Virus record (IMG/VR): IMGVR_UViG_3300029286_000071 | Coordinates: 1-46,380 of that record | DNA: 46,380 nucleotides | Direction: 5' to 3' (one strand) | DNA from: a virus | Part shown: piece after piece, positions 18,172-45,579 of the stretch | How the letters are laid out: every line of letters starts with the position of its first letter | Numbering within the stretch: the stretch's first letter is position 1 | The notes under the pieces: generated by a model | The model's input: only the letters and a program-made list of their open reading frames with translations | The model's database searches: none | Told to the model about the DNA's origin: nothing | Program-made: the position numbers and the translations under genes

Positions 18172-19692
18172 TTAATTAACTGATATATAAAATTCTTTGT
18201 GTTCATACTCTTTCCAGCTCCATACTCACGCATCAACTAAGTTGTCAACTCATCATTCATCACCAGTAAAATCTAATAATTCATTTACCCAATCAGAACA
18301 ATCAGGATAAAAGAGTATCTGTCATCTCATTAATTCTCATTCATATTCTTTAAATCTAGTGAGTTTATCTTTCGTGGCATTTACAACCTCAATAGCCATT
18401 CATATTTCCTCTCAATCTTTATTTTTAAATCTTTTCTTTTGTAAGACTCTAGCAAATAATTCTCAACCATTATTCTTCTCAATTAAAACTCTGATAGCAT
18501 TGTATTTAATATAAAGGCTTGTTATAATCTTTTCTGCTATATCTTCGTCTTTTTGGCTTCATTCTAATTTCTTACAATATAATCAATATCTATAAGTAAT
18601 ATTATTAATTGTCTTAAATCCTGTTACAGCAATCCCAATAGCATCACTTCAAGTTTTTAGGCTAAAAGCTGGGTCTATTCATATTTGCACAAAATCAAAA
18701 TCAATTTGTTCTTGTGTGTAGTTAATCCATTCATCTCTTACAATAGTTTGTCCCCTGATTAATGGTATTCAGAGAAAATTTTGGTCAAAATTACTTTTTT
18801 CTTCTCTTCTTATAGCATCAAGACTAATAACATTGCTAGTTCAAATATTATCCTTATTAATTTCTTCTGCCTCCTTATCTGTTTCAACATATCTATTCCA
18901 TAGTATAGTTCAAGATTTAGTTCAAGCTGGTCAATAAATAAAGTTAGAATAAACAATCCAATTAGGATTATTAACAGCCTCTTGCTTCTTTCTTACATTT
19001 CTTCAATCTTTTCTAATAACATTTCACAGCCATATAATCTGTCAGCAAGTCTTATCAAGTCATCATATAACCTCTCAATTCAAGAAGTCCATATCTGCCT
19101 TAATTATTCTTAGATTCTTAGTGTTCTTATCATTATCCAAATCATCAAACAAGATATGAGTAGGTCTTACATTTCATTTAAGCTTTGAATTAAAAATTTC
19201 TCATCTTAAAGCTTCTCACATTCAGAATGCCTTAACTTTAATATAATTAGTTGTTACAAATTCGCTAATTCCTTTTTCAGAAATATCATCGTCTTCATAG
19301 TCACTTGACTTTTTACTGAATAAAACTCAAAAGTCTTCTTCTATTAAGTTATTATGTATAAGTTCTTGTGCAATAAGTTTGTTAAAACTCTTAGCCTTGT
19401 CTTTATCATAACAAAGATTACAAATAAAATCAGTCTTTTCATAACATATTTTCCAAATTTCAAAAGCCATTCATAGAATAGTGGTCTTTGCACTTTCCCT
19501 ATGTCATTCTACATACAGATTTAATCATTTTTGAGCTGATATACACCAGTCTTTATGGAATGGTGCTAATTCAGGGAATTTGATATGTTTTTGGAAATAA
19601 TATAAAAAAAAGTTATAAAAATCTTGCTCTAAGTATATTACTCTAGTATTTTGTTCTGAAATTACATTTAATAATAATTCTTGGTCTGTCAT
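18172..19692 (-). CDS. terL: Terminase large subunit
   Basis: 506 residues. ATPase: Walker A GHRESAKT at about 63-70 (first Gly is TGA) and Walker B HILFDDLD at about 179-186. Nuclease: GIDPAFSLKTGSDAIGI, then LIEKNNGGELFARV and the final DNLVDAGVWSWKEY, typical of the RNase-H-like domain. It packages DNA through the portal. Its start overlaps the stop of the upstream gene by one base (TAATG), so the two are translationally coupled. Confidence 0.92.
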
Positions 19693-20336
19693 TATAGTTT
19701 TTTAAAAAATACTCATAATTTATTATCAGAATGCCCTATTGTTGACTCTCATATATGGGCTATATAAGAATAGCTAGGAAGATAACAAGGTAATCATAAC
19801 TCTTTACCTATTTGTCATATACAAGCATCAATTTGTTGGTTTCTTTTTGGTATATAAGTTTTTAAATGATTTGCATAAAATGGGTGGTTGATTATTCTTT
19901 CAATGTTATTAAACAAATAACAGGCTCAAATATTACTCCAACCATTCCTTATATCATTCCAACCTTGTCTACTTATTACATCGGCAACTCTATAATCAAG
20001 AATAAAATTATAATAAGCAAAATCTTTTCATTCTGATATAATTTTTTCAAGTTCTTCTTTAAATCATTGCCTAAAAATATAATCATCTTGAAAATATATT
20101 ACATATTCCTTGTCTTTATTTTGTTTTATTGAATAATCAAAATTCATAAAACATCATCGTTTTACTTCATTAATTTCTAGTTTAATATTATTATCTTCAA
20201 TCTGATAAGTTCAAGGTTCAGCATAAATATATATGGTTTCATTGATTCAACAATCCCTTAGACTTTGTATTGATTTATTTATTGTTGGTTTTTCTCTTTC
20301 AATAAGAGTAACAACGAATTTAATTCTTGATACCAT
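19692..20336 (-). CDS. Glycosyltransferase-like protein (GT-A type)
   Basis: 214 residues, MVSRIKFVVTLIEREKPTIN. The early TLIER..PTI..S..SL and the acidic motif YFQDDYIF (~95) suit an inverting GT-A fold with a DxD-like metal site; GWSNIGACYLF and the later NQQIDACIGQIGKELGLP fit the acceptor side. It sits within a sugar-gene run right before terL. Target may be virion protein or host envelope glycan. Confidence 0.65.
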
Positions 20337-21144
20337 AAACTTCTTTGGTTATTTCTAAATTTTTTCAGCTATTCGTTAAAAGTTTTATGTTGTATTCTTC
20401 TAATGCTCAAAATAAATTATCTCAAACATAACTCTTATAGGCATAATATTCTCTTAGTGTAGCCACATCTTTGGGAAAACAATGTCATCAAGCTCATCTT
20501 CATCAATCGTCAGAAATATTTAGATGACTTGGTCAAATTCTTGTATCAGTTTCTGCTATATACTTTATGACTTTATAATTAATTCAATCTCTTTGACAAA
20601 TATCATAAACCAAATTTGCCATTAATACTTTTGAGGTTAATAAAAAATTGCAAAAATACTTTCAAAGTTCACTTTCTTTTGCTGTACAGATAATTTCTAT
20701 GCTTTTAGGCAAAATATTCATTAGTTCTTGTGCATAAGGCTTAGATTGTTCAGTATATCCAACAATATTCCGACTTGGACTAGATACATTTTGTTTTGCT
20801 GATTTTTCCATAAGAAACTCTGCTGAATGGAAAAAGTATCTATCTTTGTATTGTTCTTGTAGTCTATCAGTAGTTCAAGGAATAATTGTGGATTTAATTA
20901 CTATTTTCTGTCAAGGCGTAGTGTTCTTGATAGCTTCATCTAAGATAGATGAGTCAAACTTTCTATTTTTGGTGGGAGTAGGGACAGCCACAAAAACAAT
21001 ATCACAAGTTTTAAGTTGTTCTAAGTTTCATTTGTACTTTTCATCTAACGAATATCTTACAATTTCAAATCATCTTTCTTCAAAATCATCAGCCATATTT
21101 CAACCAATAAAACCTTGTCATATAAATCAAATCTTATGAGTCAT
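20320..21144 (-). CDS. UDP-glucose/GlcNAc 6-dehydrogenase family protein
   Basis: 274 residues, shorter than the usual ~390-440. Rossmann start IGFIGQGFIGGNMADDF (6-22), then VFVAVPTPT, VIKSTIIPGTT, and the active site GRGAGGHCFPKD with Cys near 222; most of these glycines are TGA. The family oxidises a UDP-hexose to the uronate with NAD. The C-terminal UDP-binding domain is largely missing, so it may be a minimal enzyme. It overlaps the next gene by 17 bp in a sugar operon. Confidence 0.85.
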
Positions 21145-21146
21145 TT

Positions 21147-21881
21147 TTATTTAAAATTAAGTGGTAAAAATCAATCTAAAATACAATAATCATAAAACTC
21201 TTGATATAAGTTATTTCAGAATTGATTAAATCAGGCGTTCTGGTCGTGTCATAATGTAGGCTCTAAGTTCCCAGTAAGCTCTTGATTGTTCATAGGTGGA
21301 ACATAAGTATTTATTCAATTAGCTAAAGCTCTATAACTAACCCACAATTCTTCTCAACATACTTTGAATTTTTCTAAATCATTAGGCAACTTATCAAACA
21401 TACTAGATAAATTACTCCTTCCAAAAAACCAACTATGACCGCTCATATCAACTTGCGTAATCTTACTTGGTATATTGTTGCTTTCGCTTAATATATCTCT
21501 GTCCTTTCTTATTTTTAAGTTCTTAAAATTAGAACCCCAGCTACCATATATTCAAGGTTTCTGATTATAACAATCAATACAATTCTGAATATATCAAGTT
21601 CAAGGAATTATGTCATCATCAAGAATAAATATAAAATCTGTATTAGCGTTGAATGAAATAAAAAATCGACTCCAAACACCTAAATTAAATGAATGCTCTA
21701 TTATTAATGCTCACGGTATTAGCTTATTAATAATATAAGTATACTCTCTTCTTCGTTCCGTTAGATTTACATTTATAATAAACTTATCAATCTTATAAGT
21801 TTGAGCTAATAATGATTTAATTTGTTTTTCTAAATTATCAACTCTTTTGTAAATTGTTAAAACTGCTGTTACTGTTTGCAT
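21147..21881 (-). CDS. Family 2-like glycosyltransferase
   Basis: 244 residues. Start MQTVTAVLTIYKRVDNLEKQ, then IKSLLAQTYKIDKFIINVN, the GT2 nucleotide-binding region, and FIFILDDDIIPGTGYI with the metal-binding DDD. Further on come GSWGSN and MSGHSWFF. Likely transfers a sugar from a nucleotide donor; partners are the dehydrogenase and the other transferases here. Confidence 0.8.
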
Positions 21882-21886
21882 AGTTT

Positions 21887-22495
21887 TTAAGTAAAATATT
21901 TAAAATACATATTTTTGTTTGTTCGTTTTCACATAACCTTTTTATATCATAGTTCTTCTATAAATTTAAGTGTTTCTATGTTATTAATTTCCACCATTAA
22001 GTCAGGTTTATAACCTATAATAGTTTCAATTCAGCCTTTCAAAACTTCTAATTCCATTCACTCTACATCTATTTTTATTAAATCTATTTTTCAAAAATTA
22101 TAATCATCTAGTATCCTTATTTTAACCTTTTCTCATTTTCATTTTCTACAAGCTCACATATTATTCTGTACAACTTGAAATTCAACTGTTTCTTCTTTTT
22201 CTCACAATCAAAAATTATAAGCCTCTACATTATCTCATAAATTATTTATGAATATATTTTGTAATAACAATTTAAAGTTTTCTTTCATTGGCTCAAAAGC
22301 AATAACCTTATATCACTTGTAAGACCAATATATGGTATGATTACCAATATTAGCTCATACATCTAAGATAACACTTCATTTGCTTAATTGAGTTATTGAA
22401 AATTTTAAATAATCTTCTTCATAGAATTTTCATTTAGATAATTCTTTTCAAAGAAAATCTCAATGGTGTCTTATTTTTAAGTTTCAAATTTGCAT
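21887..22495 (-). CDS. FkbM-type SAM methyltransferase
   Basis: 202 residues. SAM motif LDVGANIGNHT (44-54), then VIAFEPMKENFKLL, and later KIDLIKIDVEGMELEVLKG, the standard FkbM signature. Family members O-methylate sugars or small molecules. Location in the sugar cluster points to methylation of a glycan. Confidence 0.88.
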
Positions 22496-22505
22496 AATAA
22501 TTAAG

Positions 22506-23207
22506 TTAATATCTATCTATTTGATTACAAGTCTTGCTATCTAACTTAAAGTAATTGCGTGTAGGTCTGCCCATTATGTATTCATCAAGTGTTGAGCCTA
22601 TATCTATATAACGATTAGTCTTATTAAGTTTCCAACATTCATAAATCATTAAGTTACTAAGAGGTCAAGCACAGAATAGGACTAACTTGTTATTATTCTT
22701 GGCAATATCCTCACACATCTTTATAATATGCTCTTTGTTTTCTTCATAATAAGAAACAACATCAAAAGGTATTCAATAAAACTTTTTAACTTTAAAAGGA
22801 TAATTTTGTCATTCTCAAATCTTATTAGCAACTAATATAACTTTTTCTTTTATTCATTCTAAAACAAGCTTAAAAGTCTTGTAGTTATTGTTTACAAAGA
22901 TTGTAGCAAATGTTTTGTCTTTAGATTTAATTGCGTGCTTGTAGAAAATATTAGCTCTTAAATGTTGCCTGCTTGCTATACCGAACATAAATCACTCATC
23001 TTGATATTTTAGTATATTATTAATTTCTGTTTTAAGTTTAGATTTATTTTGATGTGTTTTCCAAAATCAGCCAGCACCATTGAAAGTATGTCAAGCAATC
23101 AAAGAATACTCTCACTCATTGTAACGGCTGAATGCTGTTGGTGTTTTATTTATAAATATTCTTTGAATAAGATATTTATAATCTTCAGAAAAGTTTTGTT
23201 GTAACAT
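22506..23207 (-). CDS. GT-D fold glycosyltransferase (DUF1792-like)
   Basis: 233 residues. The phrase FSRYNEGEYSLIAG carries the D/N-GE signature of the GT-D glycosyltransferases, and LVLFCAGPLSNLMIYE with YIDIGSTLDEY is the conserved second half. These enzymes add hexoses to protein-linked glycans in streptococcal systems (family knowledge). Here it is probably part of a virion or host glycan pathway. Confidence 0.7.
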
Positions 23208-23777
23208 TTATTTTGTAATTATATAAAATCTTGAATTACTTTCAGGTGGTATTGAGTTATCTTTAATATAAGTAAACTTCTTTCTTTTGCTTAATTCTTC
23301 TAAATATTCCTCAAAATTATAATCATTAAGATGTGGAGCGTTTGCTGTTCATTTAGGAAAAGAATAGAATATAGCAAACCTAACAGTACTATCTATAACT
23401 TTGTTTATATATTTCTTCCATTCGCTCTTAGGGAAAATATGGAAAGTTACATCTAAAGATAATGTTAATTCGGCTTGATATTCTCAATCGTTCAAAACAC
23501 TAAATTGTTTTGTTTTATCGTCTTTAAATCTATTATTACAAATTTCAATTGCTTTTTCAGAAATATCTAAGCCTTCATAGTTTTTTATTTCATAAAGTTC
23601 AAGATTATTTCAGTCTCAACATCAAAATTCTGTAACCGTTATAATATTATTCTCTTTAATAAAGTTATTTATAAAGTTCGCCTTAAACAAAGCATTTGCT
23701 CAATAACTTCATTTTCAAGAATTTCAATTATTGATATAGCGATTATTCCAATAGGCTTTATAATCAAAATTTTTCAT
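23208..23777 (-). CDS. SAM-dependent methyltransferase
   Basis: 189 residues with motif I TEFGCGDGNN (50-58, first and last glycines TGA) and motif II YEGLDISEKAIEIC. Then LTLSLDVTFHIFPKSEWKKY, as in small-molecule methyltransferases found beside sugar genes. Abuts the GT-D gene (stop and start adjoin). Confidence 0.8.
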
Positions 23778-23788
23778 AGTTTTAAAAT

Positions 23789-24493
23789 TTAAACTTCAAT
23801 AAATTTTTGGTCAGCTAGATGTTTGCAAATCAGACGAGTATCTGCATATAACTTATATCCTAAGCTTTGTGCTCGTTCAAAGAATAGATAGTCTTCACTT
23901 AACTCTCTGCCTCTTATATTAAGTCAACCTTGTTCATTTGTTTTAAATCAAGATTGTCTAAATATGCTTGGTCAAAATTCTACATATCATCAAGCTTCTT
24001 TTTCAATATAATAAGTATATTTATTTTCAAAAGGTCTAGGATAGTTAGCAATCATATCTTCACATACCTTACGAGATAAGCAAACAAGTCAACTACCACA
24101 GTTTCCAATTTCTTCTAAGGTTCATAATCATTCTATATTCTGATAGTTAATATAAGCCTTCATTCATTCAATGACTTGTTCAAAACAAATATTCAAATCT
24201 TCTTGTCTATTCCTAAGTCTAACTATTCAACTTACTATATCCTTATGGTTGTCTACCATAACATCAACAAAATTGTCATACTTACAAGGATTGTCAGAAT
24301 CTATCATAATAAGATAATCTGAATTATGTTCTATCATTTTTTCAATAGCTAAATTCCTTGCTGAATGTATAAGCACCTTACTTGTTGTTATTACTTCAAT
24401 TTTGTACTTTGAATTTACTTTCATAAGATAAGTAGACATAGAAGTTGGTACATCTCACATTGTAGGGATAAAAAGCATTACTGATTTTGGCAT
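23789..24493 (-). CDS. Glycosyltransferase, GT-A like
   Basis: 234 residues, MPKSVMLFIPTMGDVPTSMS. Contains SARNLAIEKMIEHNSDYLIM followed by IDSDNPC, a clear GT-A pattern (A.N.A...m......yl...DsD). GSGLVCLSRKVCEDM and EDYLFFERAQSLGYKLYAD are typical of the acceptor-binding half. It is the first gene of the sugar cluster after the immunity-like gene; its start overlaps that gene's stop. Confidence 0.8.
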
Positions 24494-25709: not shown

Positions 25710-26630
25710 TTATCAATTATATATGAATAAACATTCGTTTGGCTGATTGTTATGCGATTGACTTCATCATTGTAAACAACTTTTTTGACTAAATTCATAA
25801 ATCTTTCTAAAATCATCTGGTGCAGTATATTCACTAATGAATACTTTATTTGTTTTACTTAAATTTCTTATATATTCCCAAAACTTAGTATGGTCAAATC
25901 ATCATTCAGCATAAGTAGCAGTTCATTTATATGGGGGGTCACAATATACTATTGCATTTTTTGGTATTTCTACTTCGTTATAACTTCACTTTATAATTTG
26001 CTTAATATTTTGCTTATTTTGAAGTCTTTGAAGTCTTTGAAGTCTTTGAAGTCTTTGAAGTCTTTCTAGGTTTTGTAACCTTTGCATTCATTGTAATTTA
26101 TTTCATAGTATCTTTGAAACTTTACTTAATGCTATTCTTCTTGTGTGTATTGATTTTTGTTTTAATATTCAATCAATAAATTTTTGTGGTATTATTTCTC
26201 TAATTAAATTACTTACTTCTCATCTTACAATTAAATCATCTCAACTCTTTTTTAACTCTTCAAATTCTTTTCAATATAAATATCATTTTTGATTATTTCA
26301 AAAACTCCAAATACATTGAATATATCAAACATACCAATCATCATATTTATCAGGATTATCTATAACATCTTTAAATTTATCTCTACTAACCCAATTATAA
26401 ACCTCATCAGGTAGTCAATCAAGAGTTTTTTTTAATAATTCCATTACATATTTATTTTTATCATTATTAATTGTTTGCCATCATTTTTTAATAAAAATTT
26501 CACTTACTGCAAATCATCAAGTAAATAAATCAACTAATAAATTATCTTGTCTATCTTTTGTAAAGGCATTAATTACATTAAATATATGTATTGCACTTTT
26601 ATCTTTACTTCACATATATGGAATACACAT
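25710..26630 (-). CDS. D12-class DNA adenine methyltransferase (Dam-like)
   Basis: 306 residues. YMGSK at 5-9, DLFTGGFAVSE (34-44) for SAM binding, and the catalytic DPPYKGTATYAEG at 231-243. The last part CLFIYNG is usual. An insertion at about 184-203 is a simple run of Leu-Gln-Arg triplets. Such enzymes methylate adenine, here probably to shield phage DNA from restriction. Follows a ParB-like gene with a 10-bp gap. Confidence 0.88.
26021..26065 (-). repeat. 9-bp tandem repeat inside the methyltransferase gene
   Basis: Five exact copies of GAAGTCTTT (plus strand), coding Leu-Gln-Arg on the minus strand and flanked by diverged copies. The unit is a multiple of three, so copy-number change keeps the frame. 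Confidence 0.85.
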
Positions 26631-29688: not shown

Positions 29689-29879
29689 AAAGAGTCGAAT
29701 CTTAGTTCTTAAGACAACGAACAGTAAAGCCGTACGCTCTGCTACTGTAATTCAGCGGGTAGACCTGCGTACTACCAATGGTCACATAGTAACCATAGAG
29801 ACCATAAGGAGAAGATGACCAATAGTAGCCGTACGTGCCCTGATAGTAGTAGTAGGCATTACTGCCACTGCGGTAACCT
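29689..29879 (-). repeat. Variable repeat 1 (DGR-like)
   Basis: 191 bp, aligned without gaps to 32166-32356. It covers the C-terminal ~58 codons of the gene and 12 bp beyond the stop codon. About 27 substitutions separate the copies; nearly all are in first or second codon positions, while the flanks (including the segment past the stop) are identical. Confidence 0.8.
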
Positions 29880-30229
29880 AGTTTTGGTAATTTTAAAACT
29901 TCTTTATTATTATTTTCTATAATTTCTTCCCAGTCTTCTTTAGTAGGAATTTTCTTTCATAATGTTTTAGCCTCTAGTAAGGCTCAATCAAAATTATAAT
30001 ACCAGTTTCAATTATTCTTCCAAGCTTGTGGTATTGTCTCACTTGCTTCTTTAGGATTAATTTTAATCTGTTCACAAGTAGGTTTTCATAGATTTGAATC
30101 TTCTAATTGTAGTTCTAATCTTTTAGACGGTATACCCATAAATTCAAGAGCAGATAGTATATCTTTACTATCTATTTCTATAAGAGTTTGCTTATAGTAT
30201 TTTCAATCTATAAATGTGTATTTATTCAT
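29702..30229 (-). CDS. C-type-lectin-like variable protein 1
   Basis: 175 residues. N-terminal half: IDGKYYKQTL, then NWYYNFDGALLEAKTLGKKI and PTKEDWEEII, the approach to a C-type-lectin (FGE-sulfatase/FISUMP) fold. The C-terminal 58 residues LGYRSGSNAYYYYQGTYG, YYWSSSP, YGFTVRCLKN are the ligand-binding loop in variable proteins of diversity-generating retroelements. Variable positions are Ser, Asn, Tyr, Gly, Thr and Arg, mostly surface. The repeat part is much richer in G+C than its surroundings and uses GGT/GGC, not TGA, for glycine. A presentation role (virion or host surface) is inferred. Confidence 0.8.
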
Positions 30230-30233
30230 ATAG

Positions 30234-30311
30234 TTATTTATTGGTTAATATTTTAAATAATTTTACTATTGCATTAAAAAATAGTGCTAGTAAATCCTTT
30301 AATAATCTCAT
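30234..30311 (-). CDS. Possible membrane peptide (25 aa)
   Basis: MRLLKDLLALFFNAIVKLFK then ILTNK. One hydrophobic segment with lysines, in a tight gap (5-6 bp) between two genes. Coding is plausible but not certain. Confidence 0.35.
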   Translation of the reverse strand: MRLLKDLLALFFNAIVKLFKILTNK

Positions 30312-30316
30312 ATAGT

Positions 30317-30592
30317 TTATTTAGTTAAATTATAAAGATAAGGTACTAGATTATCAAGATTTTTTAATAATATATATCTAAATCATTCTCATTCTTCATC
30401 TTCATTATTTGTATATTTTATAAACTTATCCATAAACTCTTGAGTAAATATTATTTCTCTTACATCTACTTCACAATCTGTTCAAAAGTTTATTTGTTTG
30501 TGATATTTTGTAGTATTTGTACTCCAAAAATATTTTCTAGGTACAAATCAAATTTTCTTCATTATTTCTTTTAATTGTTTGTGGTTATTCAT
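30317..30592 (-). CDS. Hypothetical acidic protein, paralogue of 35033-35344
   Basis: 91 residues. Second half IIFTQEFMDKFIKYTNNEDE, then GFRYILLKNLDNLVPYLYNL, aligns with MIFTTEFMNKFFTYYKNSNH and FRHLDDITNYLYSLIK of the gene at 35033-35344. N-termini differ. Family unknown. Confidence 0.65.
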
Positions 30593-30598
30593 AATAGT

Positions 30599-30724
30599 TT
30601 ATTTATTAATAATATAAATTACTTTCTTTTTACTTTTATAGATTTTTTCAACAAACTTATCTTGTTGTTTTATAGCCCAATCTATTTGGCGTTGTTTTTC
30701 TATTTTTTCAAAATATTCTGTCAT
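30599..30724 (-). CDS. Hypothetical basic peptide (41 aa)
   Basis: MTEYFEKIEKQRQIDWAIKQ then VEKIYKSKKKVIYIINK. Strongly basic C-terminus. First gene after a good promoter at 30752-30779. Confidence 0.5.
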   Translation of the reverse strand: MTEYFEKIEKQRQIDWAIKQQDKFVEKIYKSKKKVIYIINK

Positions 30725-30751
30725 AATTTTAATTATTAATTATCTGTTCTT

Positions 30752-30779
30752 ATTATACAGATTTTAATTAAAATGCAAA
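30752..30779 (-). promoter_or_regulatory. Promoter TTTGCA-16-TATAAT
   Basis: Minus strand. The sequence TATAATAAGAACAG at the -10 is repeated word for word at the promoter of 38068-38095, so the two may respond alike. Sits between genes 30791 and 30724. Confidence 0.7.
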
Positions 30780-30790
30780 AGATTTTTAAA

Positions 30791-31072
30791 TTATCTTTCT
30801 AAAATCAATGTCCAATAACAATAAAGTGAATTATTGATATTGTCTAAGTAACATCAATTAATATCTTGTACTTTATCCATATAAATTAATCATCTCTTAT
30901 CAATATGAGTTCAAGACTTAGTCTTATATATTGCTCATAATGGGTAATATTCTTGAATATAAGTAATCATACAATCAGCATTACCTTGACCTAGTGTTTT
31001 TGCATATAGATAGGTAGATAATGGGAATATAAAGAGTATTGCAATAAGTATTGAACCCAGTATTGTTTTCAT
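30791..31072 (-). CDS. Small secreted or membrane-anchored protein (93 aa)
   Basis: MKTILGSILIAILFIFPLST at the start is a signal peptide or membrane anchor. The following ~70 residues hold four cysteines (NADCMI, GCYLDN, YCYWTL) able to form disulfides, and end ILER. Lies directly after the endolysin candidate in transcription order, so a role at the host envelope is possible. Confidence 0.65.
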
Positions 31073-31075
31073 AAA

Positions 31076-31927
31076 TTATAATCTAATCATAAAATTTTCA
31101 TTAATTTGCACTCAATGTATGGTGGAAAGACAATTTAAAGTATTTATGTTCCAGTTTTCCTTGCTTGTAGCATAAAAAGGTTTTGTACCTCCTCATCATA
31201 CAGACAAACTTCAAATACTTTGTTTATGTTTTAAATATTTATTGTTCAGAGTCTGGAATATTAAATCTACTCACTTTTCCAAAGTAGAAACCGAAACTCT
31301 GTTACCTCTATCGTTATTGCCAACATTTCAAATATTATTAGGTGTTTTTAAATATCTTCCTAATCAAGAATCAGCCCACGCTATACAAAGTGCTACTTCT
31401 TTTTTTATCTTCCATTTTTTCTCTGAAGCATACCAATAATCAACTGGTATTTTATGGTTTTTACTAATTTCATCGAAAGTGTTTCACATTAATTCTGCCT
31501 TACTTTTACTTTGTCATTGTGAGTTTTTTAACCAAACTGGTTTTGGATTAATAACTGCTATATCTGGCTTAAAATAGTCAGCGTTTGCCTTTGGTATAAA
31601 TCATTGTTCTGGACAACTTTCAAGAGTTCATATTTTTTGCTCGATACACAACTTTTTTCCTTTTAGAGGCATAATCTTATCCTTTAACTCTGAAAACTTA
31701 AGTTTGAGCGGTTTAAGTTGTTCGTTATATCAGTTTAGTTCTTTTTCTAGTTGTTCTAATTGAATTTTTCTAATATCATCCATTTTTTTAATCTCTAGTA
31801 TCTCCTTAACCAAGTAATTAGTAGTAGTTGATATAATTAGGTATAATCCTAATACAATTATAAAACAATATATGTATGTTCGCTTACTGAATAAATAAGC
31901 AATAGTAATTATGATTTTATCTTTCAT
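31076..31927 (-). CDS. Membrane-anchored lytic transglycosylase-like protein (endolysin candidate)
   Basis: 283 residues. Membrane segment YIYCFIIVLGLYLIISTTTN (~18-37), a coiled coil, then a globular part with VALCIAWADSGLGRYLKTPN, NIGNVGNNDRGNRVS, and LNNKYLKHKQSIGSLSVGGG plus KPFYATSKENW. The order resembles lysozyme-fold transglycosylases, with AWADS in the position of the usual catalytic Glu helix; NNIGNVGNNDRG is a phrase I associate with proteins of candidate-phyla bacteria. Likely cuts host peptidoglycan. Two membrane-protein genes follow or precede. Confidence 0.6.
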
Positions 31928-31933
31928 AAAAAA

Positions 31934-32122
31934 TTAATTAGTAATAAATTTAGATAAACTATCAATTTTTTCTTTCTGCCATTCTATTTGGTTTTCAAGA
32001 TTTTTAATATAATCTTTATTAGCCTTATTTAATTTGAGTAATCCCCATATTCTATAGGATAATACTCTTAACATCTTACGAGTGTTTTCTTTAATATCTA
32101 TTATTTCAATTTCTTTTTCCAT
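31934..32122 (-). CDS. Hypothetical coiled-coil protein (62 aa)
   Basis: MEKEIEIIDIKENTRKMLRV then KANKDYIKNLENQIEWQKEK. One helix bundle, no membrane segment. It lies just before the endolysin candidate and starts soon after variable protein 2 ends. Confidence 0.6.
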   Translation of the reverse strand: MEKEIEIIDIKENTRKMLRVLSYRIWGLLKLNKANKDYIKNLENQIEWQKEKIDSLSKFITN

Positions 32123-32165
32123 ATAAATATAAATTAAAGATTAAAAAATAAATAGTCAAAGTATC

Positions 32166-32356
32166 AAAGAGTCGAATCTTAGTTCTTAAGACAACGAACA
32201 GAGAAGCCGTAAGAACTGAAATTGTAAATCAGCGGGTAGACCTGCGTACTATTAAGGTTCACACCGTAACCATAGATACTATTAGGAGAAGATGACCAAT
32301 AGTTGCCGTACCAGCCCCGACCGTAGTAGTAGGCATTACTGCGATAGCGGTAACCT
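32166..32356 (-). repeat. Variable repeat 2 (DGR-like)
   Basis: The second 191-bp copy, identical in length to 29689-29879. Shared blocks include GTTCGTTGTCTTAAGAAC before the stop, the region past the stop, and AGTACGCAGGTCTACCCGC in the middle. A small inverted repeat (TCTTA..TAAGA) overlaps the stop codon in both copies, near where DGRs carry their initiation-of-homing hairpin. Confidence 0.8.
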
Positions 32357-32760
32357 GCTAGTTTTAATCAAAGCCTTTCTCTTACAGAAGTATCATCCTG
32401 CCATCATCATTCTATCCTAATATTAGGATTTATATATTTTATTATCTGTCACCATTCATCTTTTGTTGGTACTTTTTTTCAAACTTTTTTTGTTTCTCTA
32501 ATCATCGCATCAAATGTAAATAATTGTTCTCATTTAAAATCTCAATCTAAAAACTCTGTTATATCTTCTTTTTTATTGATTAAAACTTTAACTCAACCAA
32601 TAGTTTTTTTCTTCCAATTCTTACTATAAACTTTGAAATTTTTATCTTCTAGTTCTAATATAGTGGTTTCAACACTTTTACTTTTATTTAATAGAAAAAG
32701 TATATCTTCATTAGATACTTCTACAGTTTTGTAGAATTTTCAATCTATTAGATTGTACAT
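32179..32760 (-). CDS. C-type-lectin-like variable protein 2
   Basis: 193 residues. Its first ~135 residues differ from variable protein 1 except for general layout (IDGKFYKTV, KKVGKKVPTKDEWGQII), yet the last 58 residues are encoded by the near-identical repeat: LAGYRYRSNAYYYGRGWYG, NYWSSSP, NFSSYGFSVRCLKN. At nearly every changed codon the two proteins differ in residue. Similar ends on dissimilar genes are expected when both receive the same diversified cassette. Confidence 0.8.
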
Positions 32761-35351: not shown

Positions 35352-36746
35352 TTATTTAATATTAAGTTCTTTTTTGACATTTATTCCTGTAATATCAAGA
35401 AAAATATCATTATCAAAATTAGGCAAATCTAATACTTTCTTTTTTTCTGATAATTCAGCTCAATTCCAAGCATTTTTCCACGCTTCTTTATAAGAAATTG
35501 GTTTTAGGTATCATCAAGTAGTGATACTATTAGGATTATTAGTTTTTTCTTCTTGTGTCATAAAATCTATTGAACGCCATATATTTAACTCAAAATTGAA
35601 AAAATTTGGAAAATTATAATCTCAAAATTTGATTTTAGTTTTTTTGCCAAAAAAAGTTGCAAATAGTGTAATATTAGAGAAGTATCAAGAGTTCCAGTTT
35701 CAAGAGTTCCAGTCTCAAGAGTTCAAGTTTCAAGAGTTCAAGTTTCAAGAGTTTCAGTTTCAAGAGTTTCAGTTTCAAGAGTTTCAGTATCAAGAGTTCA
35801 AGTTTCAAGAGTTTCGGTTTCAAGAGTTTCAGTCTCAAGAGTTTCAGTATCAAGAGTTTCAGTCTCAAGAGTTTCGGTTTCAAGAGTTTCAGTCTCAAGA
35901 GTTCAAGTTTCAAGAGTTTCAGTTTCAAGAGTTTCAGTTTCAAGAGTTTCAGTATCAAGAGTTTCGGTTTCAAGAGTTCCAGTTTCAAGAGTTCAAGTTT
36001 CAAGAGTTTCAGTTTCAAGAGTTTCAGTATCAAGAGTTCAAGTTTCAAGAGTTTCGGTTTCAAGAGATAATCTTATTATAATCATCAAGTTCTTGAAGTA
36101 TTTTTATTTTTGAAGTACAATTTTTATTTAATCAAAAATCAATTTCCCCTAATATTTCTATTTCACAAATTTTACTATCTTTAGGATAAAAGTCATAAAT
36201 ATCTTGTAACTTATTACAATAATGAATACCACTATTACATAATTTAATACTTTTTTCTTCAAAAATATTTCAAATTTTATATTGTTTTGATTTACATTTT
36301 AGGTTTTTATCAAAACCTTTATATGCTTTATTTGGAATAAAATCTTTAACAACTTGAATAAAATCTTTATTTGATAATGAACCTATTCAGGTTCATAATC
36401 AAGATAGTAATATTGTTTCATTTTCTTCTCAAAATTGAAAAATTGATTGTAATGCTTTATATACTAGAACCTTATTTGATTTAAAATTATTATCTACAGT
36501 TATTATGAATATTACATTTCATACTCTTTGATTTTTTCATTTAACTAAATTTTCGCATTCTTTAGGAAATTTTTCTTTAATCTTAGCGTCTAACCCTCAT
36601 CACATAGTATAATTAGGATTACTTGCACTTACTATAACTCATTCTTGCTGAAATATATCTCATACGATATAATCAGAAAAATAAGGTATTTCTTTTTTAA
36701 CTTGTTCTACAAGTTTTTTATTCAAATCTATAAATTTTATTTTCAT
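35352..36746 (-). CDS. Macro domain + DUF + pentapeptide-type repeat protein
   Basis: 464 residues. Residues ~20-135 form a macro domain: VGDIFQQEGVIVSASNPN, TMGGGLDAKI and LLSGLGTGIGSL, the ADP-ribose-binding loops. Then AYKGFDKNLKCKSKQYKIGN and CNSGIHYCNKLQDI, a small domain that in phages precedes repeat proteins. About 25 five-residue repeats of type NSGNx/NSGYG (~228-356) follow, nearly all with a TGA glycine. The last ~108 residues include NPNSITTGGYLKPISYKEAW and LPNFDNDIFLDITGI, known from phage repeat proteins. ADP-ribose binding or hydrolysis against a host defence signal is possible. Both large opposite or shifted frames here are shadows. Confidence 0.8.
35681..36066 (-). repeat. 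15-bp tandem repeats coding Asn-Ser-Gly pentapeptides
   Basis: About 25 units (plus strand: CAAGAGTTnnAGTnT). Variation is limited to the codons after NSG: AAC/TAC and TGG, TTG, CGA, TGA. The array is a multiple of 15 and so can expand or shrink in frame. Confidence 0.9.
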
Positions 36747-44271: not shown

Positions 44272-44538
44272 TTATAAAGAGTTAAACCAAGTAAGAATTT
44301 GCCAACCTCAAGTAATAATTACAGAAGTTACACCAATTACGGATAACACAATCTTAACACTTTCTAATTTAATATATCTCTTATCACTTTCTTCACGAAA
44401 TTTAAGAATAAATTCCTTAATTTCTTTTAGGTCTAATTTAATTTCTATAATATCTTTAGCCATTGAGTCGGTAGTTATTGATAAAGTATTAAGTTCTACT
44501 TCTTTCGTACATATATGAGGAGAGTTTTTGTTCTGCAT
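44272..44538 (-). CDS. XhlA-like membrane protein (holin/hemolysin family), haplotype 2
   Basis: 88 residues. MAKDIIEIKLDLKEIKEFIL and FREESDKRYIKLESVKIVLS give a coiled coil and then IGVTSVIITGGWQILTWF a membrane segment, the XhlA shape. XhlA works with a holin and endolysin in host lysis in Bacillus (family knowledge). Complete copy; the partial one is at 1-136. Confidence 0.75.
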
Positions 44539-44587: not shown

Positions 44588-44866
44588 TTAATTTTTTGGG
44601 TCTTTCTCTAACCATTTCCTAAAAGCTTCTGCCCACTCTTCTTGTGTGTATTTACTATCTACTATTTTTCTTTGGGTATTATTTAGTTTCTGGAAATAAA
44701 CATAATGACCTAACTCGTGGTAGAGAACTTCTTTTTTATTCTTCTCTTGTTTACATATCATTATATTATTTTGAGGGTATTCATATACTCCTCTTAAATA
44801 ATCTCCACAACAAAATAATCACGCACAATAAGTAGAGGAAATAAATATAATCGGTTCTAATAGCAT
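44588..44866 (-). CDS. Small zincin (HELGH) protein, haplotype 2
   Basis: 92 residues: MLLEPIIFISSTYCAGLFCC, then KEVLYHELGHYVYFQKLNNT with HExxH at 50-54, and EEWAEAFRKWLEKDP. The remaining Glu in EEWAEAF could be the third ligand, as in gluzincins. Could process host envelope or virion proteins. The copy at 186-290 lacks the metal site. Start overlaps the end of the lectin gene (TAATG). Confidence 0.7.
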
Positions 44867-45579
44867 TATGTTAATCAATTAAAAGATTTAATACTAGCCT
44901 TTGTTAGTCAATTTATAGATTTTATAGAGGAATAAGCTAATCAATTTATAGATTTTATATTAGTTGGTGCGGCTTTTATAAGACGTATTGGGAATCCAAA
45001 ACTTCTATAATAATCAAGAGCAGGATAAATATTTTTAGGAGTAACTACCATAGCATATCCATTGTCTGTATTTGGGGTAGATGCCCAATAATGTCAGTTT
45101 ATCCCTATACATCCATCATAAGCAGCAATATCAAATTCACGAAGACCTGCAACTGTAAGTTTTAAGGTAGAATTAAAAGCTTTAGTAGATGAATTTGTGT
45201 CAGTTATTGATTCAGCGGTACATAAAGCTACCCATTCATCTTTGGTTGGTAATCTCCATCAGGTTGGTATATTTATTCAGCTTGCTCAAAGTGTATCTGT
45301 TCTTGAACTTCTCCAATCAGTTCAAGTTACAAATTTACTAGGATTTTCAACTGTTAATGGGTCATTTACTGAGTATTTTGTAGTTGTAGTAGTTGAATTA
45401 TATAATTGTGAACCATCATCTCATCTACCCCATTGAAAATAATCTCAATATGCTGCTGAATCTGTTTTAGAAGTTGCTACTTGAGAAGCTCATAAATTTC
45501 TATCCATCCAAATTTTTCAATCAAGAGCAGTAACTTCTTCATAAGTCCAATCTTCATTATTATATGTTATAGTAGCCAT
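44866..45579 (-). CDS. C-type-lectin (FISUMP/FGE-like) receptor-binding protein, haplotype 2
   Basis: 237 residues. LDGKIWMDRNLGASQVATSK, AYGDYFQWGRGDDGSQLYNS, GWRLPTKDEWVALCTAES, then HYWASTP and YRSFGFPIRLIK, the order of FISUMP / C-type-lectin domains in phage receptor-binding and DGR variable proteins. The end has three short repeats (IKSINGL, IKSINGL, IKSFNGL), as in other phage tail proteins. It has no nucleotide likeness to the repeats at 29.7 and 32.2 kb. It follows the fibre gene and is replaced by a LamG remnant in haplotype 1. Confidence 0.8.

Follow-up and report, generated by a model that had tools for sequence, protein, structure and literature searches.

Results

Two lectin-like genes of the phage studied here end in a repeat of 191 bp, the copies of which we refer to as the variable repeats VR1 and VR2 (Table 1). 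The window, meaning the whole stretch of DNA that was analyzed, comprises positions 1 to 46,380 of the IMG/VR record IMGVR_UViG_3300029286_000071. The two copies align without a gap at 86% identity, leaving 27 differences (blastn E = 3e-61), and a probe in which every A was replaced by N matched nowhere but VR1 and VR2 even when three mismatches were allowed, with 0 matches expected from shuffles. Codon positions 1, 2, and 3 account for 14, 10, and 3 of the differences, respectively. Read under code 25, the differences affect 20 codons, 19 of them nonsynonymously and one synonymously (TTT/TTC). Identity persists for 13 bp beyond each stop codon and then ends abruptly, and the two copies close with the same invariant 36-bp block. 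An earlier sequence-only reading had described a gapless repeat at the ends of two genes, with about 27 differences that were nearly all amino-acid changing and lay mainly in first and second codon positions, with identical flanks running past the stop codons, and with no third copy. All of these points were borne out, and no third copy was detected in the window. The flanks had also been taken for a homing-initiation site; the identical 3′ block expected of such a site is present, but no significant hairpin follows the stop codon of VR1 or VR2 (z = −1.2 and −0.6).

The same reading considered the two genes otherwise dissimilar, which is wrong at the protein level: the N-termini of the two proteins share 37% identity (E = 2e-14), and by protein comparison they are paralogues over their full length. 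Such paralogy throughout makes the case for a diversity-generating retroelement (DGR) stronger than it would be with dissimilar genes. The assignment to a lectin fold held in part, with Pfam matches to Fib_succ_major in both proteins (E = 3e-7 and 3e-5), each under the curated cut-off of the family. The predicted structures, with a mean pLDDT of 39, were too poor to be used for fold assignment, and a PDB sequence search returned antibody chains only (E > 0.03), which we considered chance. No match was found by tblastn for the VR2 protein in public phages or for the VR1 protein in plasmids. A lysin-like gene, so named as a sequence guess with no family match, lies between the two VR genes, which are away from the tail genes. 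A third Fib_succ_major protein is encoded in one of two versions of the tail-fibre locus and was rejected as a carrier of a third VR, as it has ordinary G+C, uses TGA for glycine, and matches at the protein level only.

Table 1. Features of the window discussed in the text.
Feature	Positions	Strand	Basis and remarks
Tail-fibre 3′ locus, version 1, left contig end	1..1353	-	First 106 bp exact again at 44400
VR1, 3′-terminal variable repeat of the first lectin-like gene, to 13 bp beyond the stop codon	29689..29879	-	Sequence comparison; G+C-richest 191-bp stretch
VR1 invariant 36-bp 3′ block, stop codon and 13 bp beyond; candidate homing-initiation region	29689..29724	-	Sequence comparison
VR1 gene, 175 aa, Fib_succ_major-like C-terminus	29702..30229	-	ORF under code 25, Pfam
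Intervening gene, 93 aa, signal-peptide-like start	30791-31072	-	Inspection only
Intervening gene, 283 aa, membrane-like N-terminal segment, lysin-like by eye	31076-31927	-	No Pfam or PHROG match
VR2, 3′-terminal variable repeat of the second lectin-like gene	32166..32356	-	Sequence comparison; second G+C-richest 191-bp stretch
VR2 invariant 36-bp 3′ block, identical to the VR1 block	32166..32201	-	Sequence comparison
VR2 gene, 193 aa, paralogue of the VR1 gene	32179..32760	-	ORF under code 25, Pfam, protein comparison
Tail-fibre 3′ locus, version 2, right contig end	44400..46380	-	Last 114 bp exact again at 1240-1353
Third Fib_succ_major protein, 237 aa, in one tail-fibre locus version	44866..45579	-	Pfam; ordinary composition, has TGA-Gly

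Under table 11 or the standard code nearly every gene of the window is disrupted, while reading TGA as a sense codon yields long minus-strand genes. Among the conserved glycines encoded by TGA are ones in a methyltransferase (SAM-binding motif) and in a sugar dehydrogenase (NAD-binding motif), and the genome contains 606 TGA codons versus 207 GGN codons. The phage genome reads TGA as glycine throughout, which is code 25 of the Gracilibacteria/Absconditabacteria type. Because of this code, we take a Gracilibacteria- or Absconditabacteria-type bacterium as the probable host; phages of such code 25 bacteria have been described (PMC10746230). Terminase, portal, and DnaB-type helicase genes were recognized by Pfam matches, and capsid, tape-measure, and fibre genes were assigned by size and gene order. 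Next to the terminase, positions 19692-24493 encode a UDP-sugar dehydrogenase, glycosyltransferases, and methyltransferases, possibly for modification of virion or host-surface glycans. An adenine-methyltransferase-like gene (25710-26630) has a central run of RLQ repeats (QRLQNLERLQRLQRLQRLQRLQ), and the gene at 35352-36746 combines a weak Macro-domain match and DUF7666 with NSG-type pentapeptides repeated many times in 15-bp units, in which nearly every glycine is TGA.

That the genome wraps on itself, as the first reading had it, is not simply the case. The contig ends are two versions of one tail-fibre locus with exact repeats of 106 and 114 bp as bounds, and only one version contains the Fib_succ_major lectin gene. 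Since these exact repeats bound a variable locus at the contig ends, the genome probably closes, which suggests a closed genome in a population holding two fibre-locus versions. The two versions resemble fibre-tip exchange at the population level. A terminase scan of IMG/VR found a single sibling (L006/G001), which is 99.9% identical over window positions 22445-1299 and whose contig likewise ends in the fibre locus, at 1299. This fragment stops short of the repeats, and the IMG/VR scans found no sibling carrying the VR region. When the window was compared with the sibling contig (L024), 10 of the 12 differences in a 7-kb stretch clustered in a 157-bp part (2094-2250) of the fibre gene, a local hot spot of variation.

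A protein search of IMG/VR returned 15 lectin loci, and a second search added one more. Nine of these 16 records contain a reverse transcriptase (RT) by Pfam, and the RT-bearing relatives found are phage records. Six relatives with an RT, a template repeat (TR), and the same C-terminal domain served as controls (L008, L010, L011, L015, L020, and L021). They have Fib_succ_major/C-lectin targets and resemble the window in this domain, in the gapless 3′ VR, and in the variable columns. Unlike the window, which has two targets, code 25, and neither RT nor TR, they use the standard code and carry both parts ~1 kb downstream of the VR (within about 1-2 kb). In the controls, 115 of 116 VR-TR differences lie at TR adenines. 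The TRs of the relatives have 17 columns with a majority of AAC/AAT codons, of which 10 are variable in the window and seven are tyrosine (TAC/TAT) in both copies; variable codons are enriched in these columns (10/17 versus 10/38 elsewhere, P = 0.02).

The pattern of a gapless repeat at the 3′ gene ends would fit a DGR target, and A occurs in one of the two copies at 19 of the 27 differing sites, where 12.6 were expected (P = 0.011); C is depleted at differing sites (6, P = 0.006). Eight sites have A in neither copy, and the third-position changes, including TTT/TTC, could be ordinary drift. Eleven invariant tyrosine codons retain A in both copies. VR1 and VR2 were each rejected as the template of the other, as each lacks A at some differing sites in addition to the eight lacking it in both. 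We also simulated VR-VR pairs from the real templates and mutation rates of the relatives. The simulated pairs averaged 27 differences, of which 79% involved A and 4% a third codon position, as compared with 27, 70%, and 11% observed, and a Bayes factor of ~13 favored the template-based simulation over composition-random change. By itself, the A-bias is modest evidence.

Where both copies encode the same residue, the codons differ in 14 of 46 pairs in the upstream part of the two genes, as against 1 of 38 pairs in the repeats (P = 0.001). Because synonymous sites are homogenized inside the repeats and not upstream, we conclude that a common source was written into both genes after their separation. 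The copies nevertheless differ where the amino acid changes, an outcome produced by mutagenic retrohoming and not by plain gene conversion. Together with the agreement in the template columns, the 19 of 20 differing codons that are nonsynonymous and the near-invariant same-residue codons give the picture of a DGR target, with change at AAY-type codons in a conserved scaffold.

The repeats also stand out in composition. Their G+C contents of 0.466 (VR1) and 0.450 (VR2) are the two highest of any 191-bp stretch, against a genome mean of 0.268 (sd 0.051), and they contain no TGA-Gly. Codons free of A are in excess in the repeats (z = 5.1 and 6.0) and not in the rest of the same genes (z = −0.1 and −1.1). 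This codon shift would reflect a template from another sequence background or a template forced to avoid A in scaffold codons. We rejected A-avoidance imposed by the template as a general rule, as the relatives avoid A in the VR only slightly relative to the gene body. Since the avoidance is so slight there, a foreign origin of the template explains the shift equally well.

As the first reading had stated, the phage record contains neither an RT nor a TR, both parts of a complete DGR cassette. Pfam RVT_1 had no match in the window, and a DGR-RT profile built from the RTs of the relatives and run on all frames under code 25 gave a best E of 0.29. An A-tolerant detector that recovers the TR in 6/6 controls found none in the window. 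Avd (PF05635) had no match in the window, yet none in the control genomes either. The search was extended beyond the record for a template that would match the repeat save at A, as the first reading had envisaged. Exact patterns in which every A of the template is free (for GTDB contigs, e.g., GTNCGCNGGTCTNCCCGCTGNNTTNCNNTNNCNG) gave no true match in IMG/VR, in scans that may leave out records very near the window, and nothing in the GTDB contigs. Five IMG/VR probe matches (L001-L005) were rejected as TRs, being chance matches in unrelated DNA. A GTDB protein-alignment scan from N-terminal peptide patterns found no match, which is weak evidence of absence.

Discussion

VR1 and VR2 were very probably written by a DGR, judging from their sequence pattern. 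The DGR-like nature of the repeats proposed at the outset finds good independent support in relatives with an intact RT and template, in the agreement of template-codon columns, in the homogenized synonymous sites, and in the foreign composition, although 8 of the 27 sites have A in neither copy. We consider it reasonably probable that both repeats are targets of one DGR whose RT and TR are absent from the phage, and that they were written recently by mutagenic retrohoming in trans, with a host DGR as the likeliest source. Action in trans by a host DGR was one of the two possibilities raised at first, and it is the best remaining explanation, although exact-pattern scans found no host TR or RT. 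The chances seem to us about even for the more specific proposal that the phage carries DGR targets only and exploits the retroelement of a CPR-type host in trans to diversify two lectins, with the foreign, A-poor scaffold codons seen as a loss of TGA-Gly.

We infer that the donor would be a DGR residing outside the phage in the same cell, with a Gracilibacteria/Absconditabacteria-type host chromosome as its most likely site, and active during infection or lysogeny. Error-prone cDNA would be copied from a template with A at all 27 differing sites and, by analogy with BPP-1, would enter via the shared 3′ block as putative homing site and overwrite both lectin gene ends. The template inferred from the repeats has 60 A positions in all. 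Such writing would leave gene ends like those seen in the sequence, where the non-A backbone is shared, synonymous sites are near-identical, and residues differ at the presumed template-A sites. The differing sites alone allow ~10^15 protein variants per gene, so that a phage lacking its own mutator might obtain up to about 10^15 variants of each putative binding surface. In natural populations, trans action of DGRs inside one bacterial genome has been inferred (PMC10907252), and one clade of cellular DGR RTs is limited to Patescibacteria according to a survey that is blind to remote targets (PMC8144416).

The repeats might instead be relics, the other possibility raised at first, in which the phage or its ancestor had or used a DGR, lost the RT and TR, and kept the repeats as frozen leftovers. 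The absence of both parts from the record agrees with such a loss, and there are precedents: orphan targets of Treponema denticola strains lacking core DGR parts were taken as remnants (PMC4891356), and the orphan VRs of nanoarchaea were read as either fossils or targets at a distance (PMC4372165). Against this, codons for the same residue differ in 1 of 38 pairs in the repeats, while the rest of the genes is far diverged (37% protein identity), and the repeats are still G+C-rich within a 27% G+C genome. With synonymous sites near-identical and the G+C-rich composition retained, any loss of the DGR must be recent, and we regard relics as unlikely.

It is quite improbable that the RT and TR are provided by a helper, for instance a plasmid, a co-resident prophage, or another phage of the same host. 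The sequence evidence is equal for a helper and for the host, and the RT-bearing relatives are phage records; the template pattern, however, occurs in no IMG/VR record, in scans that may omit records very near the window. We give an equally small chance to a history with no DGR, in which partial gene conversion or a duplication recently copied a lectin end, whose binding residues then came under strong positive selection. Positive selection alone could produce the nonsynonymous excess between VR1 and VR2 (pN 0.18 versus pS 0.05, P = 0.07), but it does not account for the preference of the differences for the AAC/AAT columns of the relatives, the excess of A, the near-zero synonymous change, the segment of foreign composition, or the RT and TR that adjoin relatives of the Fib_succ_major domain. 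Least probable is that the phage genome does contain an RT and TR that the record lacks, with the fibre-locus versions being a tandem duplication around unsequenced DNA: at both contig ends the assembly broke at an exact repeat, and the sibling contig breaks there too (1299), but a closed genome with two population versions accounts for the ends with no extra DNA, and in the relatives no more than about 1-2 kb separates the RT and TR from the VR, as against ~14 kb or more between the contig ends and either VR here.

A DGR acting in trans on the two lectin genes would have partial parallels in known systems. The DGR of the Bordetella phage BPP-1 (mtd/avd/brt) has, like the putative lectin genes of the window, a lectin-type target with a 3′ VR and a conserved 3′ block. 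Its parts act on a separately supplied target and, when provided from a plasmid, retarget a gene carried by a replicating phage (PMC3240598). Unlike the window, where none of these was found, BPP-1 encodes its own RT, Avd, and TR, and a hairpin follows its VR. The trans-acting DGRs of Thiohalocapsa PB-PSB1 (PMC10907252) include VRs with no local RT or TR, as here, explained by a distant TR that matches every non-adenine site. Donor and target there share one bacterial genome; in the present case a phage holds the target, and the donor would lie elsewhere. Target genes with a VR and no RT also occur in the DUSEL4 nanoarchaea (PMC4372165) and among the remote or remnant targets of Treponema denticola (PMC4891356), which are cellular genomes and not a phage. 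The cellular DGRs of Patescibacteria (CPR), RT clade 2 of Roux et al. (PMC8144416), come from a plausible host lineage for a code 25 phage. In the literature that we covered, mostly outside subscription journals, orphan or trans DGR targets are described for cells and not for phages.

To our knowledge, all phage DGRs described bring their own mutator. If trans-acting writing of VR1 and VR2 is true, this phage would carry landing sites only, with target and mutator split across two genomes, which would explain why such targets are missed by surveys that start from RT genes. It would also connect the DGRs of CPR bacteria to CPR viruses, and gapless 3′ repeats that are G+C-rich and TGA-free would provide a cheap search rule for code 25 phages.
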